Part shown: positions 36,176 through 56,323 of the stretch, one piece after another
Layout: every line of letters begins with the position of its first letter
Numbering within the stretch: position 1 is the first letter of the stretch
Source of the DNA: Pseudooceanicola pacificus
GTDB taxonomy: Bacteria > Pseudomonadota > Alphaproteobacteria > Rhodobacterales > Rhodobacteraceae
Length of the DNA stretch: 64,000 nt
NCBI RefSeq assembly: GCF_009789075.1
Contig: NZ_WNXQ01000008.1
Location: forward strand, 1-64,000
Direction: 5' to 3'
Program-made: the position numbers and the translations under genes
The notes under the pieces: model-generated
Databases searched by the model: none
What the model was told of the DNA's origin: nothing
What the model saw: only the letters and a program-made list of their open reading frames with translations

Positions 36176-36196
36176 CCCGCTCGGGAGGTCGTCGAC

Positions 36197-36781: not shown

Positions 36782-36796
36782 ACGGAGCGTTTGATT

Positions 36797-38107: not shown

Positions 38108-38133
38108 TGACGGATTTGAGGGGACCAGGCGAC

Positions 38134-38826
38134 ATGGTCAACGCCCGCCAAGCAATAGAAGCTCAGTCGGATGGCGGCAAACTGCTGATGTCCGACGTCT
38201 ATCAGCGAATACGCGAAGACATCATCATGGGTCGGCTTGAAGCCGGTCGCAAACTTCGCATCGAAGAGCTGAAGGCAGAGTATGGCACCGGGGCCTCTCC
38301 GTTGCGCGAGGCCCTGTCACTGCTGATCCCCGAAGGGTTTGTCGACCGGCTGGAAAATCGCGGTTTCCGGGTGTCCGGCGTGACCCTCACCGATTTCGAC
38401 GACCTTCTCGATATGCGGTGCTGGTCGGAAAGCCGCGCCCTGCGCAGGTCGATCGAACGGGGTGGCAAGGAGTGGGAGGGCGAGATCGTCCTGGCCCTCT
38501 ACTGGTTTTCCCAGGCCTTTCCCGACCATGATGCGCATGACGACCGAGCCAGCGAACGCCGTCGCCTGCACAAGACCTTCCACATGGCGCTGATTGCCGA
38601 ATGCGGATCACCCATGCTTATGGAACTGTGCAGCCGACTGTTCGACCGGAACGACCGGTACCGGTCCCTCGTGAACTTCGCTGCGACTGCCGAACGCAAC
38701 CATGTGGCGGAGCATGAACAGATCGTGGAGGCCGTGCTGCGCCGCGATGCCGACGCCGCAGTCAGCGCCCTTGCCGAGCATTATGGAAAACTCAGGCGCC
38801 AGATCGAGCCCATACTCACCCCCTGA
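38134..38826 (+). CDS. GntR family regulator, FCD subfamily (2)
   Basis: A 230-residue FadR-type regulator: winged helix (DVYQRIREDIIMGRLEAG, LKAEYGTGASPLREALSLL) and FCD domain (HKTFHMALIAECGSP, VAEHEQIVEAVLRRDADAA). ATG at 38134 with GAGGGG 10 nt upstream is preferred over a GTG at 38107 that overlaps the dctM stop. Its position between TRAP system 2 and a FAH-family hydrolase suggests it senses the transported acid or its product. No clear copy of the TTGCATACAA box is seen near this operon. Confidence 0.9.
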   Translation: MVNARQAIEAQSDGGKLLMSDVYQRIREDIIMGRLEAGRKLRIEELKAEYGTGASPLREALSLLIPEGFVDRLENRGFRVSGVTLTDFDDLLDMRCWSESRALRRSIERGGKEWEGEIVLALYWFSQAFPDHDAHDDRASERRRLHKTFHMALIAECGSPMLMELCSRLFDRNDRYRSLVNFAATAERNHVAEHEQIVEAVLRRDADAAVSALAEHYGKLRRQIEPILTP

Positions 38827-38882
38827 GCCGCACCCGCGCCCGGGGCCAATTCAGAACCCAGCAACGATGATGGAACTCGCTC

Positions 38883-39725
38883 ATGCGCCTCATTTCTTTC
38901 CTTCGCCCGGATGGCACAGCCAGCTATGGCACAACCGACGGCAAATCGGTCTTTGATGCCGGGGCCGAGCTGTCGCAGACCTATTCCGATCTGCGCGCCA
39001 TCCTGACGGCTGGCGCCCAATCGGAGCTCAAGGATCGCGGGCCTGTCCTGGCCCTCGACGAGGTGACGTTGCAATCGCCCGTACCGAACCCCGACAAGAT
39101 CCTTTGTGTCGGTCTCAACTACATGAGCCACATCAGGGAAAGCGGGCGCGACAAGCCGACCTATCCGTCGATCTTCACCCGGTATCCGTCTTCGATTCTG
39201 GGGCATGGGACACCTCTGATCCGTCCCAAAGTCTCGGACAGGTTCGACTACGAGGGCGAACTGGCCGTGATCATCGGCAAGACATGCCGCCATGTCCCGG
39301 CAGATGCGGCCTGGGATGTGATTTCGGGTTACAGCTGTTTCAATGACGGCTCCATCCGGGACTATCAGGTGCACACGTCACAGTTCTGGCCAGGCAAGAG
39401 CTTTGAAGGCTCCGGTTCCATGGGGCCGTGGATCGTAACCCCGGACGAGGTCGGCGATATCACCAGGCAGACGCTGACCACCCGGATCAACGGCAATATC
39501 GAACAGCAGGCCCCCATTGATGACCTTGCGATCACGATCCCCGAAATCATCGCCTATCTGTCGCAGGTCCTGACGTTATTGCCGGGCGATGTCATTGCGA
39601 CCGGCACGCCCGGGGGCGTTGGCCGGTTCCGCGAGCCGCAGCTCTACCTGGAGCCGGGCATGACCGCCGAGATCGAAATCACCGGCGTCGGTATCTTGTC
39701 GAACGGCGTGGCAGACGAAGCCTGA
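38883..39725 (+). CDS. Fumarylacetoacetate hydrolase (FAH) family protein (copy 1)
   Basis: A 280-residue FAH-family enzyme. Predicted divalent-metal ligands are E124 and E126 (YEGELAV) and D155 (CFNDGSIRD), with H83 in the NYMSHIRE loop. The family includes fumarylpyruvate hydrolase and 2-oxo-acid decarboxylases/hydratases; the reaction normally cleaves or decarboxylates a beta-diketo or enol acid. It is a clear paralogue of the protein at 44932, sharing YPSIFTRYPSS and CFNDGSIRDYQ. Last gene of the TRAP 2 unit. Confidence 0.87.
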   Translation: MRLISFLRPDGTASYGTTDGKSVFDAGAELSQTYSDLRAILTAGAQSELKDRGPVLALDEVTLQSPVPNPDKILCVGLNYMSHIRESGRDKPTYPSIFTRYPSSILGHGTPLIRPKVSDRFDYEGELAVIIGKTCRHVPADAAWDVISGYSCFNDGSIRDYQVHTSQFWPGKSFEGSGSMGPWIVTPDEVGDITRQTLTTRINGNIEQQAPIDDLAITIPEIIAYLSQVLTLLPGDVIATGTPGGVGRFREPQLYLEPGMTAEIEITGVGILSNGVADEA

Positions 39726-39825: not shown

Positions 39826-40695
39826 CTACAGGCCGATTGCCGCACGCGCTTGCGCTGGCGACATCAGCGGGAAACCGAGGTCCTCTAGCAGTCGTGACGC
39901 TTTCAGGACCATGGCGGCATTTGACGGAGCCTTTTCTCCTTTGCCGAGCCAGACGGCATCCTCCATACCAATCCGTACATTCCCGCCCAGAAGTGCCGAT
40001 TGCGCAACCATCGGAAAGGCCTGTGCGCCAGTCCCGAAGCCGGTCCAGATCGCCGGCTTGGGCAGAAGGTTCCGGGCATAGATCAGCGTTTCAGGCAGCG
40101 GCACAAACCCATGCTTGACCCCGGTGACAATCGAACAGAGCGGTGTGTGGTCAAAGGCATTTTCGGACATGAGCTGATTGAGAATGGAAATGTCCCCGCT
40201 GTCGAACAGTTCGATCTCGGGCCGCACGCCCACGCTTTGAATCAGTTCCGCCATTCTGCGTATCGACGGCAGCGTGTTGATCACCACCTCGCCGCCAAAA
40301 ACCATGGTATTCAGGTCCAGTGTGGCGATGTCCGGCTTCAGGGCAAGGATATGTTCGACCCGCGCATCGGGCGGAAGCAGGTTCGTCCTCGGTCCCGGCA
40401 CGACCGGATTGTCCGGGGACGGATCGAAGCGCCCGCCATTGCCCGTGGTCAGGTTGATGATGAGGTCGTCGTTCTCCTGCCGGATCCGGTCGACCACTTC
40501 CCGGTATAATGCGACCTCCATCGAGGGCATCCCCGTGGCCGGGTCCCTGACGTGGACATGGACGATCGCTGCCCCGGCTTTCGCAGCCTCAAGGGCCTGC
40601 GTCGCCAATTCTTGCGGCGTTATCGGCAGGTTCTCGTTTTGCGCCCTGGTCGAAAAGTTTCCGACGAGGGCGCAGGTCAGGAATACCGGCTGCAT
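39826..40695 (-). CDS. Beta-keto acid cleavage enzyme (BKACE / Kce family)
   Basis: A 289-residue TIM-barrel enzyme of the 3-keto-5-aminohexanoate cleavage family. Zn ligands H46 and H48 (VHVHVRDPATG) coincide with those of characterised Kce; the third ligand region is E245 (IGMEDA). These enzymes condense a beta-keto acid with acetyl-CoA, giving acetoacetate and a new acyl-CoA. ATG at 40695 has AAGGA upstream; an ATG at 40719 would add eight residues. It lies at the end of the minus-strand TRAP Q-M unit, separated from it by about 57 bp in the direction DctM then BKACE. Confidence 0.88.
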   Translation of the reverse strand: MQPVFLTCALVGNFSTRAQNENLPITPQELATQALEAAKAGAAIVHVHVRDPATGMPSMEVALYREVVDRIRQENDDLIINLTTGNGGRFDPSPDNPVVPGPRTNLLPPDARVEHILALKPDIATLDLNTMVFGGEVVINTLPSIRRMAELIQSVGVRPEIELFDSGDISILNQLMSENAFDHTPLCSIVTGVKHGFVPLPETLIYARNLLPKPAIWTGFGTGAQAFPMVAQSALLGGNVRIGMEDAVWLGKGEKAPSNAAMVLKASRLLEDLGFPLMSPAQARAAIGL

Positions 40696-40752
40696 GATGG
40701 TTCCTTTCGAAAGTTCCATTGGTTTCAGAAAGATTGGGCGCGGACCGCCCCG

Positions 40753-42051
40753 TCACATCACCGACGGCAGCCACAACGTGACCTGGGGGAACAGGACGAG
40801 GATGAGGATCCGGACGCAATCGGCGAAAAAGAATGGGAGGATACCCCGATAGATCGTGGTCAACGGAATGTCCGCGCGCATCGCGTTCAACAGCATGACG
40901 TTGATCCCGATCGGTGGCGTCAGCATGCCCACGCCAATCAGCGCCACGTTGAGGATGCCCCACCAAACCGGGTCATATCCCAAGGACAGAATGATCGGCA
41001 GAACAAAGGGCAGGGTCACGACGACGGCGGCGACTTCATCGAAGAAGGCGCCCAGCACCAGGTAGATGAGCACCAGCACGAAGATGACGCCAAGCGGCGG
41101 CAGCCCGAGGCTTTCGATGGCGCCCATCATTTCGCCGCTTACGCCGCTGAGGCTGATGAAATACGAAAAGATCATCGCGCCGAAAACGATCACGTAGATC
41201 ATGACGGTGGCGACGCTGGCCTCTGACAGGACCGACAGAAAGGTGTCCCTGTTCAGCTTTCCCCGGGCAAGCGCAAAGAAGAATGCGAACACAACGCCGA
41301 CGGCGGCGGCTTCGTTCACGGTGAAGACGCCGGAATAGATGCCGCCCAGGACAATGATCGCCAGGGTGATCGCCCCCCAGGATCGGCCAATGGCAAGGAT
41401 GCGGGTCCGCAATGGCAGCTTCCGGGAACCTGGCATCGCCTCGGGCCTGCGCCGGGCGACCACCGCGATGGCCGCCAGATACAGCACCACGGAAAGCAAT
41501 GCCGGCAAAATGGCCGCGGTAAACAGTTTCAGGACGGATTCTTCGGTCAGGACGCCGTAGAGAACCATGATGCTTGACGGCGGGACTATGATCCCGAGCG
41601 TGCCGCCCGCCGCGACGGCCCCGGCAGAGCTGCCCTTGGCATAGCCCCGTTCGATCATTTCGGGCAAAGCGACCCGGCCGAATGTCGCCGTGGTTGCCAC
41701 GGACGACCCGCAAACGGCACCGAAACCCGCGCTGGCGACGATGGTCGTCGCGGCCAGCCCGCCCGGGCGATGGCCCACCAGCGCTTCGGCCGTCTCGAAG
41801 ATGTCCCGGGCCAGGCCACCGGTTGCAGCAAGACTCCCCATCAGCATGAACAGCGGGATCACCGCGAGGTCGAGGTTGGCCATGGTTGCCGCCGGTTCGG
41901 ACGCCAGCAACTTGATCGCGGGCCCCCAGCCGGTCATCGAGGCAAAGCCGCCGATCCCGACCACGGCCATCGAGATCCCGATCGGGACATGCAATGCGAT
42001 CAGGACAAACATGCACATGAGGCCCAGCAGGGCGATCGTTGCCGGATCCAT
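40753..42051 (-). CDS. TRAP transporter large permease (DctM), system 3
   Basis: A 432-residue DctM protein: VIPLFMLMGSLAATGGLARD, GAVCGSSVATTATFGRVALPEM, GGTLGIIVPPSSIMVLYG and LTPPIGINVMLLNA. The ATG at 42051 shares its first base with the TAA of the dctQ gene. The open frame running on to 42411 is a shadow of dctQ. No DctP gene lies next to this pair, which is unusual. Confidence 0.92.
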   Translation of the reverse strand: MDPATIALLGLMCMFVLIALHVPIGISMAVVGIGGFASMTGWGPAIKLLASEPAATMANLDLAVIPLFMLMGSLAATGGLARDIFETAEALVGHRPGGLAATTIVASAGFGAVCGSSVATTATFGRVALPEMIERGYAKGSSAGAVAAGGTLGIIVPPSSIMVLYGVLTEESVLKLFTAAILPALLSVVLYLAAIAVVARRRPEAMPGSRKLPLRTRILAIGRSWGAITLAIIVLGGIYSGVFTVNEAAAVGVVFAFFFALARGKLNRDTFLSVLSEASVATVMIYVIVFGAMIFSYFISLSGVSGEMMGAIESLGLPPLGVIFVLVLIYLVLGAFFDEVAAVVVTLPFVLPIILSLGYDPVWWGILNVALIGVGMLTPPIGINVMLLNAMRADIPLTTIYRGILPFFFADCVRILILVLFPQVTLWLPSVM

Positions 42052-42593
42052 TATCGCGCCCCTTTGTCCGACGTCACGGTGCCGCCCCCCGAGGCGCGCG
42101 GACCGAAACTGTCGAACACGGCAATAGTGTCCTTGATGACGTTCGATGCCTGGATGATCGCGGCGTAGTAAAGACATGCGGTCGCGACGCTCCACCACGG
42201 CCAGACTGGCCAGGCCAGAACCCAGGTCCTGCGTCCGCTCGTGTACATGCCTTCGACGAAGGGAACGAACTGCACGGCCATCAGAAAGACGAAGCCGAAG
42301 ATCACGAAACTGGAAAACAGCGTCAGCAGTTCGTTCGCGCGCACGCCCAGTATGGCCCCGAGAACCTCGACCGAGATATTCTTTCTGTCCGACAGGTTGG
42401 CGGGGATGCAACTTGCGATGACGACGGCCATGACGACGGCGCTGACATCATTCACCCCGTGCAATGGGGCCGAGAAGAAGGTCCGCAGGATGGCGTCCAG
42501 GGTCATCATGATGGCCAGTGCCAGCAGGCCGACAAATCCGACCAGTGCCAGCCAGCGGGCGCCAATCCGCAAAATGCGGTCCAAACGTGCCAA
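42051..42593 (-). CDS. TRAP transporter small permease (DctQ), system 3
   Basis: A 180-residue DctQ protein with four hydrophobic helices (IMMTLDAILRTFFSAPLHGVND in helix 2 region). The best start is a TTG at 42593, because GGGGAGG lies about 6-8 nt upstream; an earlier TTG at 42638 has no ribosome site. It precedes and overlaps dctM. Divergence from other Q proteins in the window suggests an independent origin. Confidence 0.85.
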   Translation of the reverse strand: MARLDRILRIGARWLALVGFVGLLALAIMMTLDAILRTFFSAPLHGVNDVSAVVMAVVIASCIPANLSDRKNISVEVLGAILGVRANELLTLFSSFVIFGFVFLMAVQFVPFVEGMYTSGRRTWVLAWPVWPWWSVATACLYYAAIIQASNVIKDTIAVFDSFGPRASGGGTVTSDKGAR

Positions 42594-42680
42594 AGCCGTT
42601 CCTCCCCTGAGCCTCGGTTCTGAAAGCTCTACCTGCAACGGAGAATTCTCTCCGCCGGCATCTCGAAACTGTTCGCAGCC

Positions 42681-42724: not shown

Positions 42725-43528
42725 TCAGCTGGCTTCGCGGAACTGGGCGATCTCTGCCGACGTCAACTTGCCCACCAGGTCGCGCGAGATAGCGTCGGCG
42801 GTCCGCAAGAGCTTGTCACGATAGAGCACCAGGCTCTTTTCCAGGGGCAGCGAGCTTGTGGACCATATGAGTGTCAGGCAGGCGAACACCTGGTCCTCGT
42901 ACCAGATCGGCGCAGAGATGCTGCCCGTCTCCGGTGTGAAATCGGCGACGCGGAAGCCGACGCCCAGTTTCCGCACCTTGGCGATAATGGCGTCGATGCC
43001 GCCGTCCTTCATGACGAATGGCGGTTTCACACCCGAGGTTTCCGACAACAACGTCAGCAGCGCCTGCCGATCCGGCTCGGACATATTCGCCAGCAGGACG
43101 CGGCCGCTTGCCGTCTCGATCAGGGGGATCTGCTTGCCGACCATTCCGTGGTGAACGGAATAGGGGCTGATCTGATGCGTGGATTCACGCACCTCCATCG
43201 CGCATCCGCGCAACGTCACCAGATCGAGCGGCCAGAGCACATCGCGGCCGAGTTCGATCATATGCGGCACCGCGACCTGGCAAACCCAGTCTTCCTCCCT
43301 AAAGCCCGAGCTGAGCGATTTGACATGCCGGGTCGGACGCCAGCGGTTGGAAAAATGGTCTTTCGAGACCATCCCCATCTCTGACAGCGTCCTCAGCAGC
43401 CGATAAATGGAAGGGCGCGGAATACCTGTCGCATCGGCGATATCGCCCGGCTTCGCGCCATTGAGCCGGTTTACCGCCTGAAGGACTGCGACGCCTCGCT
43501 CAAGAGCTCTGATCGATGAATCGGAAAT
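42725..43528 (-). CDS. IclR family transcriptional regulator with probable ATT start
   Basis: The frame encodes a complete 267-residue IclR protein if started at the ATT at 43526-43528, preceded by GGGAGGGAAGG with a 7-nt gap from GGAGG. The N-terminal helix-turn-helix is then intact (SSIRALERGVAVLQAVNRL, PSIYRLLRTLSEMG) and aligns with the IclR at 49194. The first ATG (43378) would delete the whole DNA-binding domain, and there is no ATG, GTG or TTG between the upstream stop and the conserved region. It is divergent from the extradiol dioxygenase operon and upstream of TRAP system 3. Confidence 0.8.
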   Translation of the reverse strand: MSDSSIRALERGVAVLQAVNRLNGAKPGDIADATGIPRPSIYRLLRTLSEMGMVSKDHFSNRWRPTRHVKSLSSGFREEDWVCQVAVPHMIELGRDVLWPLDLVTLRGCAMEVRESTHQISPYSVHHGMVGKQIPLIETASGRVLLANMSEPDRQALLTLLSETSGVKPPFVMKDGGIDAIIAKVRKLGVGFRVADFTPETGSISAPIWYEDQVFACLTLIWSTSSLPLEKSLVLYRDKLLRTADAISRDLVGKLTSAEIAQFREAS

Positions 43529-43902: not shown

Positions 43903-44883
43903 ATGTCGATTGCAGCGCTTGGCTATATCGGGATCAACTCAAAGAAACTGAGGGATTGGGACGACTTCGCGACCAATTTGCTGGGAATGCAAAAGGTCGA
44001 CACAGGTGGAAATTCCGGGCTCTTCCGGATGGACGACAGGAAACAACGGCTGATCGTCACCGGCGAAGGCGAAGAGGATCTGGCCTTCATGGGGTGGGAG
44101 GTGGAAACGCCCGAACATCTCGATGCCCTGGCGTCCCGGCTGGAAGATCACGGGGTCAAGGTCACCTGGCATGGTGCGTCCCTGGCCGATCAGCGCCATG
44201 TCGCGCGGCTGATCTCTTTCTGCGATCCCGACGGCAACCGGCTGGAGGCCTTTTGCGGGCCCGAAGTCGCCAGCGATCCTTTCCTGTCCGGGCGGCCGAT
44301 TTCGGGTTTCAAGACAGGGTCGCTTGGTATGGGCCACGCGGTCCTTCATGTCGAAAACGTTCAGGGCATCCTGCATTTCTATCGCGACATTCTGGGCTTC
44401 AACGTCACCGATTACGGTCTGACGCCCTACCCTCTCTACTTCTTCCATGTGAACGGGCGGCACCACAGCTTTGCCATGGTGGGATCGGGCCGCAAGGGCA
44501 TCCATCACTTCATGGTCGAACTGCTGTCTCTGGACGATGTCGGGCAGGGCTATGACATCGCGCAGGAACGCGATGAAGGGGTGGCCTACACATTGGGTCG
44601 GCACTCGAACGACCACATGATGAGCTTTTACACCAATACGCCGTCCAAATTCTTCGTGGAATACGGCTGGGGCGCGCAGATCGTCGACCCCGACACCTGG
44701 CAACCGTTCGAGACGACCGAGGGCCCGTCTACCTGGGGTCACGAACGCATCCACCTTCCCGAGGACGACGCGGTGCGCAAGCGGATGCGGGAAATGCGTC
44801 ACGAGACCGCCCGTACCGGGTTCCGCGCGCCCGACCCTCAACCGAATTGCGCCTGGCTGGATCGCGTCGTTCACACGGAATGA
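43903..44883 (+). CDS. Extradiol ring-cleavage dioxygenase (VOC/BphC-like)
   Basis: A 326-residue two-module VOC protein. Likely Fe(II) ligands are H145 (MGHAVLHV), H201/H202 (IHHFMVEL) and E253 (FFVEYGWG), arranged as in BphC-type 2,3-dihydroxybiphenyl dioxygenases. It would cleave a catechol-like ring next to the hydroxyls. The ATG at 43903 has AGAGGA about 9 nt upstream. It leads an operon with a FAH hydrolase, monooxygenase, MDR and GST, so it probably performs the ring-opening step. Confidence 0.87.
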   Translation: MSIAALGYIGINSKKLRDWDDFATNLLGMQKVDTGGNSGLFRMDDRKQRLIVTGEGEEDLAFMGWEVETPEHLDALASRLEDHGVKVTWHGASLADQRHVARLISFCDPDGNRLEAFCGPEVASDPFLSGRPISGFKTGSLGMGHAVLHVENVQGILHFYRDILGFNVTDYGLTPYPLYFFHVNGRHHSFAMVGSGRKGIHHFMVELLSLDDVGQGYDIAQERDEGVAYTLGRHSNDHMMSFYTNTPSKFFVEYGWGAQIVDPDTWQPFETTEGPSTWGHERIHLPEDDAVRKRMREMRHETARTGFRAPDPQPNCAWLDRVVHTE

Positions 44884-44931
44884 TCGCTGTCTGCCCGACA
44901 GACGGCAGTCACCAAACGAGGAGACCAACTG

Positions 44932-45777
44932 TTGAAGATTTCTTCCTACGTCCTGCCGGGCGGTACCGAGTCCTACGGACGCCTTGAGGGCGATACCGTC
45001 GTTGACGCGGGGACCACGCTTCGCGGGACCTATCCGGACCTGCGCGCGCTGCTGGCAGGCGACGCGATCCACAGGCTCGCATCGGCTGATGGTCCGTCGC
45101 TTCCGGTGTCCGACGTGACGATGCTGCCGACAATTCCAAAGCCGGACAAGATCGTCTGCATTGGTCTCAACTACCTTGGCCATATCAAGGAAACCGGCCG
45201 GGACCGACCGGAATACCCGTCCATCTTCACCCGCTACCCCTCGTCAGTTGTAGGTCATGGCGCACCGTTGGTCCGCCCGAAGGTCTCGCAGAATTTCGAT
45301 TTCGAGGGCGAATTTACCGTCGTCATCGGCAAACCCGGACGCCATATCGCCAGGGACAGGGCCTATGATCATGTCGCCGGCTATACCTGCTTCAACGACG
45401 GGTCGATCCGGGACTATCAGCGGCACACGACACAGTTCTGGGGCGGCAAGAACTTCTGGCAATCCGGCTCGATGGGGCCCTGCCTTGTGACGCCGGACGA
45501 ACTGGGCGACCCGACAGAACCGCGGATGGTCACGCGCCTGAACGGCGAGATCATGCAGGACACCTCGGTCGGCGATCTCGCCTTCGATATTCCCGACCTG
45601 ATCGCCTATGTCTCGACGATCATCGACCTGGCGCCGGGCGACATCATCGCAACCGGCACGCCAAGCGGCGTCGGCAATTTCCGCGACCCCAAGGTCTTCA
45701 TGAAGCCCGGCGATACGATCGAAGTCGAAATCGACGGGATCGGAACGCTGTCGAACCCGATCATCGACGAAACCTGA
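44932..45777 (+). CDS. Fumarylacetoacetate hydrolase (FAH) family protein (copy 2)
   Basis: A 281-residue paralogue of the protein at 38883, with H84, E125, E127 and D156 in the same motifs (NYLGHIKE, FEGEFTV, CFNDGSIRD). Start is TTG at 44932 with AGGAG upstream, and there is no ATG in a sensible position. Following an extradiol dioxygenase, it probably hydrolyses the ring-cleavage product to smaller acids such as pyruvate or fumarate derivatives. Confidence 0.87.
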   Translation: MKISSYVLPGGTESYGRLEGDTVVDAGTTLRGTYPDLRALLAGDAIHRLASADGPSLPVSDVTMLPTIPKPDKIVCIGLNYLGHIKETGRDRPEYPSIFTRYPSSVVGHGAPLVRPKVSQNFDFEGEFTVVIGKPGRHIARDRAYDHVAGYTCFNDGSIRDYQRHTTQFWGGKNFWQSGSMGPCLVTPDELGDPTEPRMVTRLNGEIMQDTSVGDLAFDIPDLIAYVSTIIDLAPGDIIATGTPSGVGNFRDPKVFMKPGDTIEVEIDGIGTLSNPIIDET

Positions 45778-45801
45778 ACACGACCCATCGGGAGACAACC
45801 C

Positions 45802-47496
45802 ATGTCTGAGGTACACACAGACGTCGCCATCATCGGCGGCGGCCCGGTCGGGCTGAGCGCGGCTTGCATGCTGGGGCACCTGGGGCTGTCCTGCATCCTC
45901 TACGAACAGAACGACACGACCTCGTTCCACCCGCGCGGCCATGTCGTCAATACGCGGACGATGGAGATCTTTCGTTCGCTCGGCGTGGCGGCCGACGTCG
46001 ATGCCGTCTCGCTCCCGCTTGAGCGGCATGCCGGCATCGGGTTCGTGACCAGCCTTGCCGGCGAAGAGATCGGCGTCATCGAAACCCGGGCCAATCCCGA
46101 ATGGGCGCGGATCGAACGGTTGCAAAGCCCAGTCTTCAAAAGGTCCTGTCCTCAGGATGTACTGGAGCCGGTTCTCAGGACCCATGCGGAAGCCTGCGAC
46201 TGTGTCGAGACACGGTTCGGACACAGGATCACCGGGATTGAACAGGACGAGACCGGGGTCACCCTGAGCTGGGAGTCAGCCTCGGGCGCCACTGGCCGGA
46301 CGCGGGCGAAATACCTGATCGCCGCGGACGGCCCGCGCAGTTTTTCACGCGGCCGCGTCGGCATCGGGATGCAGGGCCGGTCCATTGGACAGCAGATCGG
46401 CGTCTATTTCCACGCGGACCTCTGGCACCTTGTCGAGACGCGCCCCTACCTGCTCTACTGGATCTACAATGCGACGACGTCGGGCGTCCTGATCTCGCTC
46501 GATGGACGACGGCGCTGGACGTACAACTTCGGCTATTCCGAAAACGAGTCCCGCGAGGATTTCACGGCCGACCGGTGTCTGGCCATCCTGCGCGCTGTCA
46601 TCGGGGATCCGGCCGTTCCGATCGAGATCAAGAACGTGATGCCCTGGCGGATGCAGGCCCGCATTGCCGACACGATGGCGTCTGGCCGGGTGTTCATCGC
46701 AGGTGACGCGGCGCATCCGCTTCCGCCGACCGGCGGCCAGGGTATGAACACCGGCGTTGCCGATGTTCAGAACCTTATCTGGAAACTCAACCTCGTGCTG
46801 CGGGGCGCTGCACCGGACAGCCTGCTCGACACCTATGATGTCGAACGGAGACCGGTCGCGAAATTCAATGTCGAGCAAAGCGCCCGGAATGCCGAAGCGA
46901 TGGTCAGGAAGGGCCTGTCGGGCATGCTGGCCAATGAAAGCGCGCTCTTGTCGAACCTCGAAGGCCCCGAAGGCGCGGCGAACCGGGCGAAACTGGCCGA
47001 AGGCATTCCCGAACAGCGGGCGCATTTCGACTATCCGGGGCAGACGTTCGGCTACCACTACGAATCCGCCCTCATCACGCCGGATGGCACTGCCCTGCCG
47101 GAATTTTCCGTCGCCGAATACCGGCCGACCGCCAGACCCGGCCACCGCGCGCCACATCTGACGCTTGGCGACACCCCGGATACTTCCCTTCTGGACATCT
47201 TCGATATCGGGCATTTTACACTTCTTGCCGGACCCGACGGGCAAGACTGGGCCCTGGCGGCACGCTCTGCCGCGGATGCCCTGGACGTTCCGCTGAACGC
47301 ATTCCGGATCGGCACGGATGTGGATACGGATGTCGACGCATGGGGCCGGCTTTACGGCGTGTCGGCGGATGGGGCTGTCCTGATCCGACCGGATGGGCAT
47401 GTCGCCTGGCGGTCCAGGAGCACGGGCGCCGCGCGTGACTTGCACGATGCTCTTGCCCGGGCCGTTTCGCGGTCGGATGCGACCGTCTCTGCATGA
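45802..47496 (+). CDS. FAD-dependent aromatic monooxygenase (TfdB/MhpA family)
   Basis: A 564-residue class A flavin monooxygenase with GGGPVG at 12-17, FHPRGHVVNTRTMEIFRSLG, DG motif IAADGPRSFSR, GD motif RVFIAGDAAHPLPPTGGQG, and a C-terminal thioredoxin-like domain ending in VLIRPDGHVAWR. It resembles the 585-residue enzyme at 15751 in architecture but is not close in sequence. It should hydroxylate a phenolic acid to make the diol opened by the dioxygenase encoded upstream. Confidence 0.88.
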   Translation: MSEVHTDVAIIGGGPVGLSAACMLGHLGLSCILYEQNDTTSFHPRGHVVNTRTMEIFRSLGVAADVDAVSLPLERHAGIGFVTSLAGEEIGVIETRANPEWARIERLQSPVFKRSCPQDVLEPVLRTHAEACDCVETRFGHRITGIEQDETGVTLSWESASGATGRTRAKYLIAADGPRSFSRGRVGIGMQGRSIGQQIGVYFHADLWHLVETRPYLLYWIYNATTSGVLISLDGRRRWTYNFGYSENESREDFTADRCLAILRAVIGDPAVPIEIKNVMPWRMQARIADTMASGRVFIAGDAAHPLPPTGGQGMNTGVADVQNLIWKLNLVLRGAAPDSLLDTYDVERRPVAKFNVEQSARNAEAMVRKGLSGMLANESALLSNLEGPEGAANRAKLAEGIPEQRAHFDYPGQTFGYHYESALITPDGTALPEFSVAEYRPTARPGHRAPHLTLGDTPDTSLLDIFDIGHFTLLAGPDGQDWALAARSAADALDVPLNAFRIGTDVDTDVDAWGRLYGVSADGAVLIRPDGHVAWRSRSTGAARDLHDALARAVSRSDATVSA

Positions 47497-48515
47497 CTGA
47501 TACAAGGATTACCCAGACTATGGCCATACCCGAGACCCAGACAGCGATTGTCATCACCGGCGCCGGAGGCCCCGACGTTCTGCAACCGCAGACGGTCGAG
47601 GTTCCGGTGCCGGGTTCGGGACAGGTGCTGATCCGGGTGAGCGCCGCCGGCGTCAACCGTCATGACGTCCATCAAAGATCGGGCGGACGGCATAGCGACG
47701 GCACTGCCATCCCGGGGCTGGAGGTCTGCGGGACCATTGCCGCCGTCGGCGCCGGCGTCGACCGGGACCGCATCGCAGAGCGTGTGATGGCCCTGGTTCA
47801 GGGCGGCGGCTATGGCCAGTATGTGATCGCCAGCCAGCACCTCGTCCTGCCGGCGCCCGACACGCTTTCGGACATCGAAGCCGCCGGTTTTCCGGAAGCC
47901 GCGTTCACGACATGGTGGAATTTCTTCCATCTCATGTCGCTCGGGAAAGAAGGGTTCGCCCTGATCCACGGGGGGACCAGTGGCGTCGGCCATATCGCGC
48001 TGCAGGCCATGTCCGCCCTGGGCTACCGGGTCATCGCAACGGCCGGAACAGAGGCCAAGGTCACCGCTGCCAAGGGTTTCGGCGCGCATGCGGCGTTGAG
48101 CTACCGCGACGCGGAACTCGCCGCCAAGGTCATGGAGGCGACCGGCGGTCAGGGCATTTCGGCCCTGCTCGATGTTTCGGCCGGGGCGCATCTGGATCAG
48201 GATCTGAAGATGATGGCCCCGGACGGTCAGATCGCCCACCTGTCGGGCGGCGGCGGGGCCGAACTGGCGCTGCCCCTGCGGGACATCATGGCGAAACGCC
48301 TGCGCATCACCGGGTCGCTGCTGCGTCCGCTGCCGCTGGACCGAAAGGCGCGGGTGGCCGAGGATATCCGGCGCGATGTGCTGCCCCTGCTGGGCACCAG
48401 GGTCCGGCCGACACTCGCCGCCACATTCGATTTCCGGGACGCCGCCAGCGCGCATGCGGAGATGGAACGAAACGATCACATCGGAAAAATCATGCTGACG
48501 GTCGACCACGACTGA
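47493..48515 (+). CDS. Zinc-independent MDR oxidoreductase (quinone oxidoreductase family)
   Basis: A 340-residue medium-chain dehydrogenase/reductase of the NADPH:quinone oxidoreductase type. The catalytic-zinc ligands of classical alcohol dehydrogenases are missing; the NADP-binding HGGTSGVGHIALQAMSALGYRV is clear. It may reduce a quinone formed by autoxidation of the diol intermediate, or an enone ring-cleavage product. The ATG at 47493 overlaps the monooxygenase stop by ATGA; an alternative ATG at 47520 better matches the family N-terminus. Confidence 0.87.
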   Translation: MTDTRITQTMAIPETQTAIVITGAGGPDVLQPQTVEVPVPGSGQVLIRVSAAGVNRHDVHQRSGGRHSDGTAIPGLEVCGTIAAVGAGVDRDRIAERVMALVQGGGYGQYVIASQHLVLPAPDTLSDIEAAGFPEAAFTTWWNFFHLMSLGKEGFALIHGGTSGVGHIALQAMSALGYRVIATAGTEAKVTAAKGFGAHAALSYRDAELAAKVMEATGGQGISALLDVSAGAHLDQDLKMMAPDGQIAHLSGGGGAELALPLRDIMAKRLRITGSLLRPLPLDRKARVAEDIRRDVLPLLGTRVRPTLAATFDFRDAASAHAEMERNDHIGKIMLTVDHD

Positions 48516-48536
48516 CGCATCAACAAGGAGGCCAAG

Positions 48537-49157
48537 ATGAAGTTCTATTTTTCCCCCGGCGCATGTTCGCTCGGGATTCACTTTCTGCTCGAAGAGATCG
48601 GCGTCGACTACGACGGCGTCGCGATTCACATCAAGAATGGCGACCAGCTCAAGGAAGACTACATTCGTGTGAACCCGAAATCCAAGGTTCCCGCCGTTCT
48701 GCGCGACGATGGTTCGCTCTTGACCGAATTCGGCGTGATCGCCCACTGGCTGGCGCAGACCTACGCCAAAGAGACCTTCGGGCCGGAGAGCTTCGAGGAA
48801 GAGTTGCGCATCCTGGAAACCCTCGACTACATCGTGGCCACGATGCACATGCAGGGCTTTTCCCGGATCCTGCGCCCGCAGAAGTTCACCCCGAACGATG
48901 CCGATCTGGATTGGGTGCAGGGGGCTGGCACAGACATCGTCATGAAAGCGGCGGGTTTCCTGTCCAAGCAGCTTGGCGACGGGCCGTTCATCATGGGCAA
49001 CCGCATGACCATCGCCGATGCCGCGCTGTTTTACACGATGTTCTGGGGCGTTGTCCGGCTTGAACTTGATCTGCCCGACAACCTGATCGCCTATTTCCGG
49101 CGCATGTCGGACCGGCCGGCCGCGCAAAGGGCCATGGCGCTGGAAGGGCTTGTCTGA
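48537..49157 (+). CDS. Beta-class glutathione S-transferase
   Basis: A 206-residue GST with the beta-class signature FYFSPGACS, where C10 is the active-site cysteine, the glutathione-binding KVPAVL and the C-terminal FIMGNRMTIADA. In this operon it could be a glutathione-dependent cis-trans isomerase acting between dioxygenase and FAH hydrolase, as maleylpyruvate isomerase does in gentisate breakdown (inference), or a detoxifier of reactive quinones. AAGGAGG is 6-7 nt before the ATG. Confidence 0.88.
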   Translation: MKFYFSPGACSLGIHFLLEEIGVDYDGVAIHIKNGDQLKEDYIRVNPKSKVPAVLRDDGSLLTEFGVIAHWLAQTYAKETFGPESFEEELRILETLDYIVATMHMQGFSRILRPQKFTPNDADLDWVQGAGTDIVMKAAGFLSKQLGDGPFIMGNRMTIADAALFYTMFWGVVRLELDLPDNLIAYFRRMSDRPAAQRAMALEGLV

Positions 49158-49193: not shown

Positions 49194-49970
49194 GTGTCGA
49201 AACCCGACAACGGAATTCGCGCGCTTGAACGGGGACTCGCGCTTCTGGAGGAACTGAATCGCTGCGACGGCGCCCGTCCCACGGCGCTGTCGAAAGCGCT
49301 TGGTCTGCCAAGAAGCTCGGTCTACCGCATCCTCGAAACGCTGGAAGAGCTGCACTATGTCGAACGCAGCGCGACGGATTCCCGTTTTCGCGTCACCGAC
49401 CGGGTCTGGCTTCTGGCGCGCGGCGTCACGCGGACCAAGCTGGGATCCGTCGGCGGCCCCGTCATCCGGCGGCTGTCGGCCGAGATCCACTGGCCGGTCG
49501 ATGTCTGCTCCTACGATGCCGGCAAGATGTTCACGCAGGAGACGACACACAGGCTGAGCCCGATGTCTCTGGCGCGCAGCATGGTGGGCTTGCCGCTCCC
49601 CCTGCTGCGGACCGCGTCGGGACGGGCCTTTCTGGCGTTCTGCGATCCCGACGAACAGGCCGCGATGCTGGCTCTGGCCGAAGCGGCAGGGGACCCTGAG
49701 GACCTGCCTTATCTCGACCGGCAGTCGATCAACAGGCTGCTGACGGACACGAGAACCCGCGGCTACAGCATCCGCAGCGGAGAGCCCGCCCTGCCGACCA
49801 GTTCCAGCGACAAGACCAGCAGCATCGGCGTGCCGATCCTGAAAGACGGCCGGCCTGTCGGGGCCATCGTGGTCATCTGGATCACCTCGGCGCTGAGCCT
49901 GACCGAGGCGGTCGGGCAGTTCCTCGCCCCCCTCAGACAGGCCGCTGAAACCATTGCAGCAGAGCTCTGA
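49194..49970 (+). CDS. IclR family transcriptional regulator
   Basis: A 258-residue IclR protein: winged helix (IRALERGLALLEELNRC, RSSVYRILETLEELHYV) and effector domain (RTASGRAFLAFC, SIGVPILKDGRPVGAIVVIW). Start GTG at 49194, with ACGGAGA upstream. It is the last gene of the ring-cleavage operon and clearly homologous to the divergent IclR at the other end, so the operon is flanked by two related regulators. Confidence 0.9.
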   Translation: MSKPDNGIRALERGLALLEELNRCDGARPTALSKALGLPRSSVYRILETLEELHYVERSATDSRFRVTDRVWLLARGVTRTKLGSVGGPVIRRLSAEIHWPVDVCSYDAGKMFTQETTHRLSPMSLARSMVGLPLPLLRTASGRAFLAFCDPDEQAAMLALAEAAGDPEDLPYLDRQSINRLLTDTRTRGYSIRSGEPALPTSSSDKTSSIGVPILKDGRPVGAIVVIWITSALSLTEAVGQFLAPLRQAAETIAAEL

Positions 49971-50165: not shown

Positions 50166-51737
50166 ATGACCCGGCAGCCGAATATTCTGATGATCATGAC
50201 CGACCAGCTGCGGGCCGACTGTCTTGGATGCTATGGCCACCCCCTGGCAAAGACGCCCAATATCGACGCGCTGGCCCGTACCGGGACGCAGTTCGACCGG
50301 TTCTATGTCGCCTCTCCGGTGTGCATGCCGAACCGGGCCAGCATCATGACGAGCCGTATGCCCTCGGGGCACCGTGGCCGGTTCAACGGCATCGGGCTGG
50401 GGCTGGGCGATGTCACCTTCGTGGATGTACTGCGCCAGGGGGGTTATGACACCGCGCATTTCGGCAAGTCTCATCTGCAGAACTTCTCGACCGTGCCGCC
50501 TGCGATGCTGCACGAACCGCAAGGACGGACCCCCCTGCCCGCCGCCCTTCAAAGCGCTGTGCCGCGTCAGGAGGGCGAGGTATACGCGCAGGAGATGCCG
50601 ACAAGCTGGGCCGACCCCGGCCATCGCGTCGCCACACCCTATTACGGGTTTTCGCACGTCGATCTGGCGACCAATCACGGTGACGAGATCGGCGGCGACT
50701 ACGAGGCGTGGCTGCGCGGGCAGGTCGACGACATCGACTCGGTGCGCGGGCCCGAAAATGGGGTTCCCAAATCGGGATATGACGCGCCCCAGACCTGGTG
50801 TTCGCCCCTGAAGCCGGAACAATGGTCGACCCATTACATCGGTGACCGTGCCTGCGACTGGCTGCGCGACCGCGCGCCGGGCGCCGCGCCCTTCTTTGCC
50901 TCCGTGTCCTTCCCCGATCCGCATCATCCCTTCGTCGTGCCGGAACCCTATTTCAGCATGTACCGGCCCGAAGACATCACTCTGCCGGACACCTTCGCCA
51001 ACCGGATGCCCCTGCCCGCACGGAACCTGCACCAGCAGTTGGCAGACGGCACGGCCATGCGCGGGCATCAGCTGGCTTTCGCCGTCAGCGAGGACGAGGC
51101 GCGGGCGATCATCGCGGTCACGCTCGGCATGATCACCTTCATCGACGATCAGGTCGGCCGGCTGGTCTCGACGCTGAAGGCGACCGGCGACTATGACAAC
51201 ACGATCATCGTCTTCAATTCGGACCACGGGGATTTCCTTGGCGACTACGGGCTGATGCTCAAGTTCGGCATTCACAATGCCGGCGTGACGCGCGTGCCGT
51301 TCATCTGGTCCGATCCGCGCGATGTCGCGTCCAGGGGCGCGGTGCGGTCTGATCTGGCGTCTTCGCTGGATATCGGTCCCAGCTTTCTGGCCGCCGCGGG
51401 GATGGACTGTTTCTCCGGTGCGCAGGGGCGGGATCTGTTCGACGCCGCAATACCGGAACCGGACGGCCTGCTGATCGAGGAGGAATCTCAGCGGCCGGTC
51501 CTGGGGATGTCCCACGCCCTGGTCATGCGGTCCCTGGTGACGCGCGACTGGCGCCTGACCCTGTCTGTCGGCAACGGCAACCACGAACTGGTGCATCTGG
51601 CCAGGGACCCGGGCGAGACACGAAACCTGTGGGACGACCCGCAGAGCGCCGGAACCCGCCACAGGCTGACCGAACAAATGGCGCTGCGGATGATCGAGCT
51701 GGCGGATCGAACGCCTCTGCCGACATCCCGGGCCTGA
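50166..51737 (+). CDS. Sulfatase family hydrolase (FGly type)
   Basis: A 523-residue alkaline-phosphatase-superfamily enzyme with the N-terminal metal site NILMIMTDQLRAD and the sulfatase motif C53-x-P-x-R (PVCMPNRAS), whose cysteine is converted to formylglycine by a maturation enzyme not encoded here. Further metal-site residues are in VFNSDHGDFLGDYG. No signal peptide is visible, so the substrate must be imported. The TRAP genes directly downstream in the same direction could import a sulfate ester. Phosphonate monoester hydrolase activity is a known alternative in this family. Confidence 0.88.
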   Translation: MTRQPNILMIMTDQLRADCLGCYGHPLAKTPNIDALARTGTQFDRFYVASPVCMPNRASIMTSRMPSGHRGRFNGIGLGLGDVTFVDVLRQGGYDTAHFGKSHLQNFSTVPPAMLHEPQGRTPLPAALQSAVPRQEGEVYAQEMPTSWADPGHRVATPYYGFSHVDLATNHGDEIGGDYEAWLRGQVDDIDSVRGPENGVPKSGYDAPQTWCSPLKPEQWSTHYIGDRACDWLRDRAPGAAPFFASVSFPDPHHPFVVPEPYFSMYRPEDITLPDTFANRMPLPARNLHQQLADGTAMRGHQLAFAVSEDEARAIIAVTLGMITFIDDQVGRLVSTLKATGDYDNTIIVFNSDHGDFLGDYGLMLKFGIHNAGVTRVPFIWSDPRDVASRGAVRSDLASSLDIGPSFLAAAGMDCFSGAQGRDLFDAAIPEPDGLLIEEESQRPVLGMSHALVMRSLVTRDWRLTLSVGNGNHELVHLARDPGETRNLWDDPQSAGTRHRLTEQMALRMIELADRTPLPTSRA

Positions 51738-51795: not shown

Positions 51796-52815
51796 ATGTT
51801 CATGAAGAAAACCGCAACCGCGATGGCGCTGGTCCTTGCCGGCGGCCTGGCCGCATCGGCCGAGACAACGCTGGTGTTCAACCGCTATCTGCCCGACCAG
51901 AACGAGATCATGCGAGCCGGCGTGCTGCCCTGGGCCAAGGCGGTCGAAGAGGCCTCGAACGGCGGTGTGGTGATCGACTTCACCGCATCGTCGCTGGCCC
52001 CCCCGCCCGTGCAACTAGACATGATCCGGTCGGGCATAGCCGACGTGGCGATCAACCTGTCGTCCTTTACCGCAAAACAATGGCTGGCCCCCCTGATCGG
52101 AGAGCTTCCGCTGCAGTTCGATGCGGCCTCGTCCGAAGCCTTCTCCGTCGCGCTCTGGCGGACCTATGACAGGTTTTTCCGCGAAGCCGAAAAACTGGAC
52201 GGCGTGCATGTGGTCGCGCTCTGGGCGCTGACCGGCAACCACGTCTGGAACAACAAGCGCTCGATGGAAAAACTGGCGGACGCCAAGGGGCTCAAGATCC
52301 GCGTCAACCCGAATGGCGCGGCGGTCACGGATGCCATGGGTGCCGTCGTCGTCTCGCGCCCCGCGATCGAGAGCTTCGAGATCATCACCCGCGGTGTGGT
52401 CGACGGGACGGTCCTGCCGATCACATCCGTTCAGGGCCTGCGCCTGCTGGAAGAGCTGAAATACGGCACGCTTTTTGCGGACGGGCTCTATCGTTCGACC
52501 GTGTCCATCATCGTCAACGACACCGTCTGGAACGCCATGCCCGAAGCGGATCGCATGGCCATCGAGAAGGTGAGCGGAGAGCACCTCGCCCGTCTGGCGG
52601 GCAGCAACTTCGACGCGGCCGAAGCCGAAGTCCGGGCTCTGCTGGAGCCAAGCGGGATCGCGGTGACCGAGATGCCGGCGGACGAGATCGAAACCCTTGC
52701 CGAGGCGGTCGCCGGCGAGACGGACGCCTGGGCCGCGCGCGTGAAAGATCTGGGGCTCGATCCCGACGAGGTGCTTGCCTATTTCCGCCAACAGCTTGCC
52801 GACGCAGGAAATTGA
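51796..52815 (+). CDS. TRAP transporter substrate-binding protein (DctP), system 4
   Basis: A 339-residue periplasmic protein with signal peptide MKKTATAMALVLAGG...ASA (cleavage near residue 22) and DctP features (IRSGIADVAINLSSF, LADAKGLKIRVNPNGAAV). GGGAGGAG lies before the ATG. It is the first of three coupled genes (P-Q-M) after the sulfatase; its ligand may be an organosulfate or related acid (inference). Confidence 0.92.
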   Translation: MFMKKTATAMALVLAGGLAASAETTLVFNRYLPDQNEIMRAGVLPWAKAVEEASNGGVVIDFTASSLAPPPVQLDMIRSGIADVAINLSSFTAKQWLAPLIGELPLQFDAASSEAFSVALWRTYDRFFREAEKLDGVHVVALWALTGNHVWNNKRSMEKLADAKGLKIRVNPNGAAVTDAMGAVVVSRPAIESFEIITRGVVDGTVLPITSVQGLRLLEELKYGTLFADGLYRSTVSIIVNDTVWNAMPEADRMAIEKVSGEHLARLAGSNFDAAEAEVRALLEPSGIAVTEMPADEIETLAEAVAGETDAWAARVKDLGLDPDEVLAYFRQQLADAGN

Positions 52816-52816
52816 C

Positions 52817-53350
52817 ATGGCAGACAGGGCTTCGGGGCAGCAACTGCCCGCAGCCTTCGATCTTGTCCTGAAGGTCATCGTGACCGCGACACTGCTGTGT
52901 ATCGCGGTCATCACCTTCATCGACGTGATCGGGCGCTATTTCTTCAACGCTCCCGTCCCCGGCGCGTTCGAGATTCAGGAATTCGGCATGGGGGTCCTCA
53001 TCTTCTCGGGTCTGCCGCTGGTCACACGGGCGCGCAGCCATATCACCGTGTCCCTTTTCGACGCCGTCTTCGCACGCAATGCCACGGTCCAGGCGCTGAA
53101 ATCCGGGCTGGTCCATCTGATCAGCAGCGGCATCCTTTTCTTTGTCGCCACCTGCCTGTCACGGCAGGCGATGAACGTGCAGAAATGGGGCAGCACCTCG
53201 GTCTTCCTGCAACTGCCGATCTATCCCGTCATCTGGCTGATGGTCGGCATGACCGCCCTCTCGGCGACCATCTGCCTGGTGTTTGCGGCACAGGCCTTTG
53301 CCGGGCGCGCCCCGCAGTCAGACGATTCAACGAAGGACAGTATCCTATGA
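52817..53350 (+). CDS. TRAP transporter small permease (DctQ), system 4
   Basis: A 177-residue four-helix DctQ protein (FIDVIGRYFFNAPVPGAFEIQE is the conserved helix-2 region). The ATG at 52817 is two bases from the dctP stop, indicating coupling; the frame upstream is the end of dctP. Overlaps dctM by ATGA. Confidence 0.91.
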   Translation: MADRASGQQLPAAFDLVLKVIVTATLLCIAVITFIDVIGRYFFNAPVPGAFEIQEFGMGVLIFSGLPLVTRARSHITVSLFDAVFARNATVQALKSGLVHLISSGILFFVATCLSRQAMNVQKWGSTSVFLQLPIYPVIWLMVGMTALSATICLVFAAQAFAGRAPQSDDSTKDSIL

Positions 53351-54639
53351 CCCTGGGACTCCTTGGCCTTGGCGTGCTTTTGCTGGTCGCCTTTATCGGC
53401 GTGCCCCTCGGGTTGACGATGATGATCGTCGGGTTCGGCGGGTTTGCGATGGTCCGTGGCATCGACGCCGGCATGGCCATGGTCGGGCAGACGATCACGT
53501 CAAACAGCATGTCGTACGGCTTCATCGTCGTGCCGCTGTTCGTGCTGATGGGCAACTTCATCTTCCGCGCCGATCTGGCGCGTGATCTCTACCGCGCCTC
53601 CTATGTCTGGTTGGGGCGCTATCCGGGCGGGCTGGCCATGTCGACCATCGTCGCCTGCGGTGGCTTTTCCGCCGTCAGCGGATCCTCTGTGGCCACCGCC
53701 GCCACCATGGGCCAGGTGACCTATCCCGAGATGCGCCGCTATGGCTATAGCAAGGAGCTTTCGGCAGGCACCATCGCGGCCGGCGGCACGCTTGGCATCC
53801 TGATCCCGCCTTCGGTCGTTCTGGTTCTCTACGGCCTGCTGGTCGAAGGCGACATCGGGGCCCTGTTCATCGCCGGGATCCTGCCGGGCGTCATTTCGAT
53901 CCTCAGCTACCTCATCCTGATCGCCGCATTGTGCAAGATCTTTCCCGGAATCGGACCGAGGGGCGAGGTTTTCCCCATGTCGGAACGCCTCAGCTCGCTG
54001 CGCGGTGTCTGGCCGGTCATGGCGCTGTTTCTTTTCGTGATCGGGGGCATCTATTTCGGCGTCTTCACCCCGACCGAGGCCGGCGGGATCGGCGCGGTCG
54101 GCGCGCTTGGCTTCTGCATCCTGCGCGGCCGGATGTCCTGGAAGGTCTTCTTCGAGTCGATCTTCGAGGCGGGCCGCATGTCCGCGATGATCTTCACGGT
54201 GGCGCTTGGCGCGATGATCTTCTCGAACTTCATCGAAATCTCGCGGATGCCGGCAAACCTGCTGGAGTGGGTCGAGGCCATGAACCTGTCCCCGATGAGC
54301 GTCATGTGGATCATCCTTGCCATCTATCTGGTGCTGGGCTGCGTCTTCGACGGGCCGGCGATGGTGCTTCTGACGGTGCCGCTCTTTGCGCCGCTGGTCG
54401 CACTTCTGGGCTTTGACCTGATCTGGTTCGGCATTGTCGTGGTCGTCGTGACCGAGATCTCGATGGTGACACCGCCAATCGGGATCAATGCCTTCGTGCT
54501 GAAAAGCGTCCTGCCGGAACTGTCGCTGTCCCAGGTCTTCCGCGGGATCGCGCCGTTCTGGATCGCCGATATTGCGCGACTGTTGCTGATCGTTCTCTAT
54601 CCGCCGATCGCCCTGTACCTGCCGACCGTGATGGGATGA
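53347..54639 (+). CDS. TRAP transporter large permease (DctM), system 4
   Basis: A 430-residue polytopic permease with FIVVPLFVLMGNFIFRADLARD, SGSSVATAATMGQVTYPEM, GGTLGILIPPSVVLVLYG and VTPPIGINAFVLKSVL, all standard DctM elements. The true start is ATG 53347, overlapping dctQ by 4 bp. Confidence 0.93.
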   Translation: MTLGLLGLGVLLLVAFIGVPLGLTMMIVGFGGFAMVRGIDAGMAMVGQTITSNSMSYGFIVVPLFVLMGNFIFRADLARDLYRASYVWLGRYPGGLAMSTIVACGGFSAVSGSSVATAATMGQVTYPEMRRYGYSKELSAGTIAAGGTLGILIPPSVVLVLYGLLVEGDIGALFIAGILPGVISILSYLILIAALCKIFPGIGPRGEVFPMSERLSSLRGVWPVMALFLFVIGGIYFGVFTPTEAGGIGAVGALGFCILRGRMSWKVFFESIFEAGRMSAMIFTVALGAMIFSNFIEISRMPANLLEWVEAMNLSPMSVMWIILAIYLVLGCVFDGPAMVLLTVPLFAPLVALLGFDLIWFGIVVVVVTEISMVTPPIGINAFVLKSVLPELSLSQVFRGIAPFWIADIARLLLIVLYPPIALYLPTVMG

Positions 54640-56134: not shown

Positions 56135-56323
56135 GTCTTCCTCCCTTTGTTCCGGATTTGACCGGTGTTGCCCGGAAGCAGAGGCGCGATGACGTCCAGA
56201 CGCCGAGCCCATGTCATTCCGAACTCTCAGGCAGCGTAAGCTCCGTCCGGCACTTCACAATCGCATTTGCCAAAGTGTTCGCCCTTCGAAAGAACACGCG
56301 GTCGGGAGGACCTGTCCGTTGCG

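Follow-up and report, generated by a model that had tools for sequence, protein, structure and literature searches.

A dioxygenase, hydrolase and monooxygenase operon of Pseudooceanicola pacificus and a proposed Hcd-like route for a phenolic compound

We analysed a window of 64,000 nucleotides from Pseudooceanicola pacificus (contig NZ_WNXQ01000008.1, positions 1 to 64,000), which is part of a 181-kb contig in a 3.9-Mb genome rated 66.85% complete. Five open, co-directional genes span exactly positions 43903-49157 of the window, with intergenic gaps of 48, 24, -4 and 21 bases, and form a candidate operon for opening an aromatic ring. They encode an extradiol dioxygenase of the VOC type (called VOC below), an enzyme of the fumarylacetoacetate hydrolase family (FAH), a class A flavin adenine dinucleotide (FAD) phenol monooxygenase (FMO), an MDR oxidoreductase and a glutathione S-transferase (GST; Table 1). 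The initial annotation had named the same set of enzymes, and all five families are matched by profile.

The VOC shares 44% identity with BphC of P. putida KF715, which bears out its earlier description as BphC-like, and scores 289 bits against the BphC equivalog model TIGR03213, under the cut-off of 366. We aligned one sequence per 90% identity cluster, giving 37 family rows, or 36 loci without the paralog from the window's own genome. H145, H202 and E253, together with other active-site His, Asn, Asp and Tyr positions, are kept in 37/37 rows. We take these three residues to align with the Fe ligands of type I extradiol enzymes, and the aligned residues to have the corresponding catalytic roles; on that assignment, all Fe-ligand and catecholic active-site positions of such enzymes are present in the VOC. 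Other features set the family apart. It has a C-terminal extension that the outgroup rows lack, with C316 and W318 present in all 37 family rows and in none of the 17 outgroup rows. F251 has the same distribution, R282 occurs in 37/37 and 1/17 rows, respectively, and Q30 and Q48 are invariant in the family and are also found in some outgroup rows. Compared with BphC of 1HAN, the VOC is six residues shorter in the loop preceding the segment PAYFLH. Plain BphC function was considered and rejected, given the sub-cut-off equivalog score, the loop gap, the C-terminal extension and the lack of a BphD match above cut-off (see below). The window dioxygenase looks like a member of a BphC-type clade of its own, and the operon like a variant of the hcd and mhq kind introduced below.

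A contig scan for the VOC returned at least 76 loci, a figure that may leave out close copies of the window's genome. Here WIN denotes the window locus, L numbers the other VOC loci and G numbers genomes, G000 being that of the window. The family proper, at 52-95% identity, is spread over roseobacters, rhizobia, SAR116, Pseudothioglobus and many Pelagibacteraceae, with relatives in Pseudosulfitobacter pseudonitzschiae and Roseibium aggregatum. It also occurs in a Granulosicoccaceae genome and, besides Pseudothioglobus, in a second gammaproteobacterial single cell. It is present in 18/197 genomes of the order to which the Pelagibacteraceae genome G005 belongs, and in 10/149 genomes of the window's own family (G005 and the window's genome being counted in the respective figures). 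Between the plasmid records CP070278.1 and NZ_CP066788.1, a ‘Dysgonomonadaceae’ plasmid (246,192 bp) gives matches identical to those of one from Martelella lutilitoris (246,197 bp), and is perhaps mis-assigned or contaminated.

To count gene partners, we built profiles from clustered open reading frames around VOC loci and used only the clusters matching known families. The counts refer to 27 of the 36 non-redundant loci, namely those with at least 7 kb of flank on the left and at least 6 kb on the right; L063, L075 and L076 (fragments), L077 and L078 were left out. Within 10.5 kb of the VOC, an FMO is found at 26 of the 27 loci, an FAH at 21, DctP at 18, IclR at 18, an MDR at 11, a sulfatase at 6, a GST at 5 and a beta-keto acid cleavage enzyme (BKACE) at 3. 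Within 5 kb, the figures are 20 for FMO, 21 for FAH, 14 for DctP, 2 each for GST and BKACE, and 0 for sulfatase. All 64 family loci, redundant ones included, yield FMO 60, FAH 50, DctP 45, BKACE 24, sulfatase 24, MDR 18 and GST 10. By contrast, all twelve partner families count 0 at 15 outgroup VOC loci from the same search (36-43% identity, any flank; 9 of them satisfy the flank rule). The grouping is therefore more than a chance one: FMO and FAH are steady partners of the VOC, often with a TRAP transporter (18/27).

The FAH matches PF01557 at 234 bits and has GLNYxxHIKE, FEGE, D and K positions common to solved FAH enzymes, to which we presume the corresponding roles. A tree, weakly supported at its deep nodes, places most FAH rows of the VOC loci in one of three clades: a SAR11-type, a Roseibium-type and the window/roseobacter-type. 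The sole FAH gene found in the draft Pseudothioglobus genome G008 is that of the cluster. At L044 (16418-18000), an SDR gene accompanies an FAH that scores 385 bits against 2,4-didehydro-3-deoxy-L-rhamnonate hydrolase (cut-off 500), perhaps indicating deoxysugar catabolism.

The closest solved relatives of the window FMO in the PDB are 2,4-dichlorophenol 6-monooxygenase (6u0p), GrhO5, RubL and 2-hydroxybiphenyl 3-monooxygenase. A tree of 40 FMO sequences separates three types. Type A comprises the window, L012, L003/L079 and L080 (support 100/98); type B comprises roseobacters, some rhizobial relatives and a second cluster in the window's genome; and type C comprises SAR11, SAR116, Roseibium and others. 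Four scanned FMOs of types B and C pass model NF004829 (cut-off 390) at 398-570 bits, while the window FMO scores 200. By this split, the hydroxylase type is exchanged and VOC and FAH are retained. Because the window's type is set apart, substrate inferences do not transfer automatically from one type to another. The second cluster lies outside the window, at about 86.8-97.5 kb of contig C21 of G000 (L085 6798-17526). It contains an FAH, a VOC 71% identical to that of the window, an IclR regulator, and, as scanned, the type B FMO and a P450; by reading, SnoaL-like and carboxymuconolactone-decarboxylase-like proteins are encoded there besides TRAP genes, the carboxymuconolactone-decarboxylase-like one without an NCBIfam match.

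FMOs with 36-47% identity to the R. aggregatum enzyme are encoded on plasmids of Paraburkholderia, Variovorax, Allorhizobium and Rhizobium, close to an FAH and a different VOC. This suggests that the FMO-FAH logic is combined with several dioxygenase subfamilies. Four such loci from these genera, L092, L093, L094 and L095, have VOC proteins of 177-297 aa. Among the plasmid matches examined for MhqB, no record bore that name, and these other FMO-VOC-FAH clusters were found instead; nor did the collections searched yield a record identified as hcdB.

A characterised counterpart of the FMO-VOC-FAH combination is hcdABC of Pseudomonas mandelii 7HK4. This gene set (accessions MH346032-4) degrades 3-(2,4-dihydroxyphenyl)propionate with three enzymes, namely an FMO of class A, an extradiol dioxygenase of type I and a hydrolase of the FAA family (PMC6222606). 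HcdA makes 3-(2,3,5-trihydroxyphenyl)propionate, which gives a quinone, and HcdB then cleaves the hydroxylated product. Four ordinary cleavage products of catechols kept their colour with HcdC extracts, and the 2,4-dihydroxy-6-oxo product, followed as its derivative, was gone from cells with all three Hcd proteins (all PMC6222606). For the Mhq route, a figure legend in PMC8571283 names trihydroxytoluene and 2,4,6-trioxoheptanoate.

On a modest balance of probability, we favour an oxygenolytic route of this Hcd/orcinol-Mhq type for the window operon, acting on a phenolic compound that is probably an acid whose ring is of the resorcinol or hydroquinone type. The orcinol route was reportedly described by Chapman and Ribbons in 1976. 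The compound would be imported by a TRAP transporter and hydroxylated by the class A FMO to a 2,3,5-trihydroxyaryl compound, a 1,2,4-triol. On chemical grounds such a triol is needed, since extradiol cleavage gives an acylpyruvate only where the ring has a third hydroxyl, para to the C-OH of the bond that is broken. The BphC-type VOC, whose catalytic residues are present, would then open the presumed substrate beside the side chain, yielding the 2,4,6-trioxo acid R-CO-CH2-CO-CH2-CO-COOH. FAH enzymes of the acylpyruvate-hydrolase kind cut acylpyruvates. Judging by its family, shared residues, linkage to the VOC and the hcdC precedent, the window FAH may split the trioxo acid into pyruvate and the beta-keto acid R-CO-CH2-COOH, which would be 3-oxoadipate if R is CH2CH2COOH and oxaloacetate if R is COOH. 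A BKACE converts a beta-keto acid and acetyl-CoA to an acyl-CoA and acetoacetate. By its proximity, the neighbouring BKACE is a candidate for the last step, to R-CO-CoA and acetoacetate.

A fairly improbable alternative, though the strongest of those considered, is that a 3-substituted catechol undergoes ordinary meta-cleavage. The FAH would then serve as a decarboxylase or as 2-hydroxypentadienoate hydratase, with a hydrolase and an aldolase encoded elsewhere in the genome or belonging to unrelated families. The closeness of the VOC to BphC is consistent with this, as are the matches of type B and C FMOs to 3-(3-hydroxyphenyl)propionate hydroxylase models, those of the IclR regulators to PRK09834 models and a match of the window FAH to the HpaG decarboxylase model, the last at 169 bits and so under the cut-off of 276. 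HcdB, the nearest functional precedent, also cleaves plain catechols (PMC6222606). The usual downstream hydrolase and aldolase, however, are mostly missing from the ten genomes searched for them. BphD (TIGR03343) is above cut-off in 0/10 genomes, several of them incomplete and MhpC models being outside the search; the best match has 354 bits in the Martelella genome G002, and the other nine genomes reach at most 59.2. The 4-hydroxy-2-oxovalerate aldolase (TIGR03217, cut-off 286) is above cut-off in only one of these ten genomes, several of which are drafts; G009 reaches 234 bits and the other eight at most 87, with 63 in the window's genome at its 66.85% completeness. The one genome with the aldolase is again G002, which has it on the same contig as the 354-bit BphD-like gene. 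Since 14 control genomes have no BphD or aldolase match above cut-off, G002 is the only positive example. If BphD and the aldolase are indeed absent, it must be the FAH that acts on the ring-cleavage product. Given also that the FAH is a steady partner, ring cleavage followed by direct FAH hydrolysis is the best reading.

The GST bears on a different alternative. The initial annotation had seen gentisate-like logic here, and its assignment of the last step to the FAH agrees with the steady presence of this partner; its isomerisation step finds no support. In the gentisate route, the cupin-fold gentisate 1,2-dioxygenase is followed by a maleylpyruvate isomerase, of the zeta GST class, and by fumarylpyruvate hydrolase. 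The ring-cleaving enzyme of the window is instead VOC/BphC-like, and the FAH corresponds at the superfamily level only. The GST, with the motif SPGACSL and Cys10, is of the cysteine type, as had been noted, but only in the sense of a beta-class enzyme. We assign it to the beta class; it is GstA-like, matches PDB entries 2gdr and 2dsa, which we take to be BphK, and scores 49 bits against the maleylacetoacetate isomerase model TIGR01262 (cut-off 171). Moreover, the predicted 2,4,6-trioxo product, by chemical reasoning, lacks a cis double bond, so no GST isomerisation step is expected. A role for the GST as maleylpyruvate isomerase was therefore rejected on its class, its rarity near VOC relatives and the chemistry. 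A gentisate-like scheme in which a hydroquinone-type ring is opened to a maleyl-type diketone, the GST with glutathione isomerises cis to trans and the FAH hydrolyses the fumaryl form is accordingly unlikely. The FAH, the occurrence of the GST directly after the MDR at five loci (WIN, L001, L002, L012 and L080; three of them drop out as redundant from the counts over 27) and the existence of VOC-family hydroquinone dioxygenases (LinE/PcpA) are in its favour, whereas the class and rarity of the GST, and a VOC of the catechol-cleaving BphC type with its catecholic active-site residues kept, argue against it. Least probable of all is a cassette for chlorinated or other xenobiotic phenols, to which the TfdB-like FMO, nearest in the PDB to 2,4-dichlorophenol 6-monooxygenase, and the BphK-like GST might point, as the linked TRAP genes, regulators, sulfatase and BKACE indicate growth-linked catabolism and VOC relatives occur with other FMO types in SAR11.

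In the favoured Hcd-like route, the MDR and GST would be accessory, perhaps acting against a quinone formed by autoxidation of the triol. The conversion of the HcdA product to a quinone gives a possible role to the MDR as quinone reductase, and perhaps to the GST. The MDR might keep the triol reduced or, alternatively, be an ene-reductase like HcdE.

In two lineages, the VOC has a BKACE gene at a distance of 2.2-4.1 kb. The first consists of WIN, L001, L002, L012 and L080. The second consists of loci from SAR11, gammaproteobacteria and small-genome alphaproteobacteria, 18/18 of those with a right flank of 1.8 kb or more (by title, 9 Pelagibacteraceae, 7 uncultured Alphaproteobacteria and 2 gammaproteobacterial); L031, from a Rhizobiaceae-group genome without BKACE at the locus, is excluded from this set and would make it 18/19. 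In SAR11, the divergent BKACE-family gene is directly downstream of the FMO. The enzymes of the two lineages are 18-22% identical, so the family was probably recruited twice. The four small genomes G005-G008 have two BKACE genes each, one of them in the cluster, the window's genome has four above cut-off, and in the SAR116 genome G009 the single BKACE gene and the FAH genes found there lie on different contigs.

Several observations weigh against the proposed route or parts of it. The link to BKACE is infrequent in the non-redundant list (3/27 full-flank loci within 10.5 kb, 6/36 with any flank), the 18-locus set is highly redundant (3 in that list), and its BKACE-like proteins are divergent and miss one segment. 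BKACE genes occur in 10/10 genomes, and genomes with a clustered BKACE carry others elsewhere. No FAH is nearby at 6/27 full-flank loci (L014, L023, L027, L028, L031 and L054), nor an FMO at 1/27 (L013). The partner profiles were derived from the surroundings of the VOC family itself, which biases the comparison toward the family over the outgroup. The FMO type of the window is phylogenetically distant from the FMOs of most relatives. Finally, the operon was likened to hcd and mhq by their described gene plan and chemistry, not by sequence. HcdB, besides accepting plain catechols, is inactive on 1,2,4-benzenetriol, and the authors propose another cut by the FAH, to succinate and 2-hydroxy-4-oxopentenoate, the hydrolysis products not being identified there (PMC6222606).

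The surroundings of the operon contain regulators, transporters and further enzymes (Table 1). The open reading frame listed for the divergent IclR regulator starts at 43378, and same-frame similarity to a full-length paralog extends to about 43546. FAH1 is part of a separate TRAP-GntR-FAH1 run at 35114-39725. L012 has no FAH within 10 kb of the VOC other than its counterpart of FAH1, and FAH1 may therefore serve the same route. By reading, a DctP-like gene (55091-56212, minus strand) and a TonB-dependent-receptor-like gene (56324-58360, minus strand) are found beside the TRAP genes.

Table 1 Genes of the candidate operon and its surroundings, with positions in the window
Feature	Position	Strand	Evidence
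VOC extradiol dioxygenase, type I two-domain, BphC-like, 326 aa	43903..44883	+	profile matches, alignment
FAH enzyme, predicted acylpyruvate hydrolase	44932..45777	+	PF01557 234 bits
Class A FAD phenol monooxygenase (FMO), TfdB/HbpA-like, type A	45802..47496	+	FAD_binding_3 and Rng_hyd_C; PDB relatives; tree
MDR NAD(P)H:quinone oxidoreductase, PIG3 family	47493..48515	+	PIG3-type model 318 bits, above cut-off 297
Beta-class glutathione S-transferase (Cys10), accessory	48537..49157	+	GstA model 118 bits, below cut-off 198
IclR-family regulator	49194..49970	+	best models PRK09834
Sulfatase with CxPxR motif; no signal peptide by eye	50166..51737	+	family match
TRAP transporter: DctP 51796-52815, DctQ ~52817-53350, DctM ~53347-54639	51796..54639	+	
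IclR-family regulator, divergent from operon	42725..43378	-	family match
TRAP transporter DctM and DctQ	40753..42638	-	
BKACE, predicted to act on the beta-keto acid	39826..40719	-	family match, proximity
FAH1, second FAH-family enzyme	38883..39725	+	family match

A broader picture can be drawn only tentatively, and we hold it with more doubt than the route itself. It would be a marine pathway that unzips a resorcinol-type aromatic acid, perhaps sulfated, as a poly-beta-keto acid, with a BphC-type triol dioxygenase, an acylpyruvase and BKACE giving pyruvate, acetoacetate and an acyl-CoA without semialdehyde or aldolase steps. Such a pathway might be common to SAR11, SAR116, Pseudothioglobus, roseobacters and marine rhizobia; its one dioxygenase-FAH core would be fed by any of three exchangeable FMO types. 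Among the papers listed by searches of an open paper library, none appears to treat aromatic ring opening in SAR11 or a marine version of the route. The proposal makes a concrete prediction for genes annotated merely as ‘VOC family’, ‘fumarylacetoacetate hydrolase family’ or MhpA-like, and may connect BKACE enzymes to aromatic catabolism. As the gene set is compact and its product checkable, the carbon source could be found through growth or binding assays.

Among known systems, the gentisate route shares with the window the cleavage of a ring to an acylpyruvate and hydrolysis by an FAH, but uses a cupin dioxygenase and a zeta-class isomerase where the window has a VOC and a beta-class GST. 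The biphenyl upper pathway has the same VOC subfamily (at the 44% identity to BphC) and a beta-class GST; the window operon, by contrast, has neither a ring-hydroxylating dioxygenase nor BphD, and an FAH instead. The orcinol/Mhq route resembles our proposal in its triol, extradiol cleavage and trioxo acid, and differs by an uncharged methyl side chain. The hcd system is similar in that a single operon encodes its class A FMO, type I extradiol dioxygenase and FAA-family hydrolase, and in its 2,4-dihydroxy-6-oxo (trioxo) acid product. An MDR enzyme, HcdE, is induced alongside the hcd genes, although it is described as a coumarin reductase of the alcohol-dehydrogenase type and not named PIG3 (PMC7913881). 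In the sections of PMC6222606 consulted, the BKACE, GST and TRAP transporter of the window are not mentioned for hcd. The suggestion that the operon may encode an undescribed route was too strong, because this triad is described for hcdABC (PMC6222606) and the triol and trioxoheptanoate are named for Mhq (PMC8571283). The logic of the route thus has a characterised precedent in hcdABC. What is new here is the BphC-type dioxygenase clade, the exchangeable FMO types, the linked BKACE in two lineages and the occurrence in SAR11, SAR116, Pseudothioglobus, roseobacters and rhizobia.

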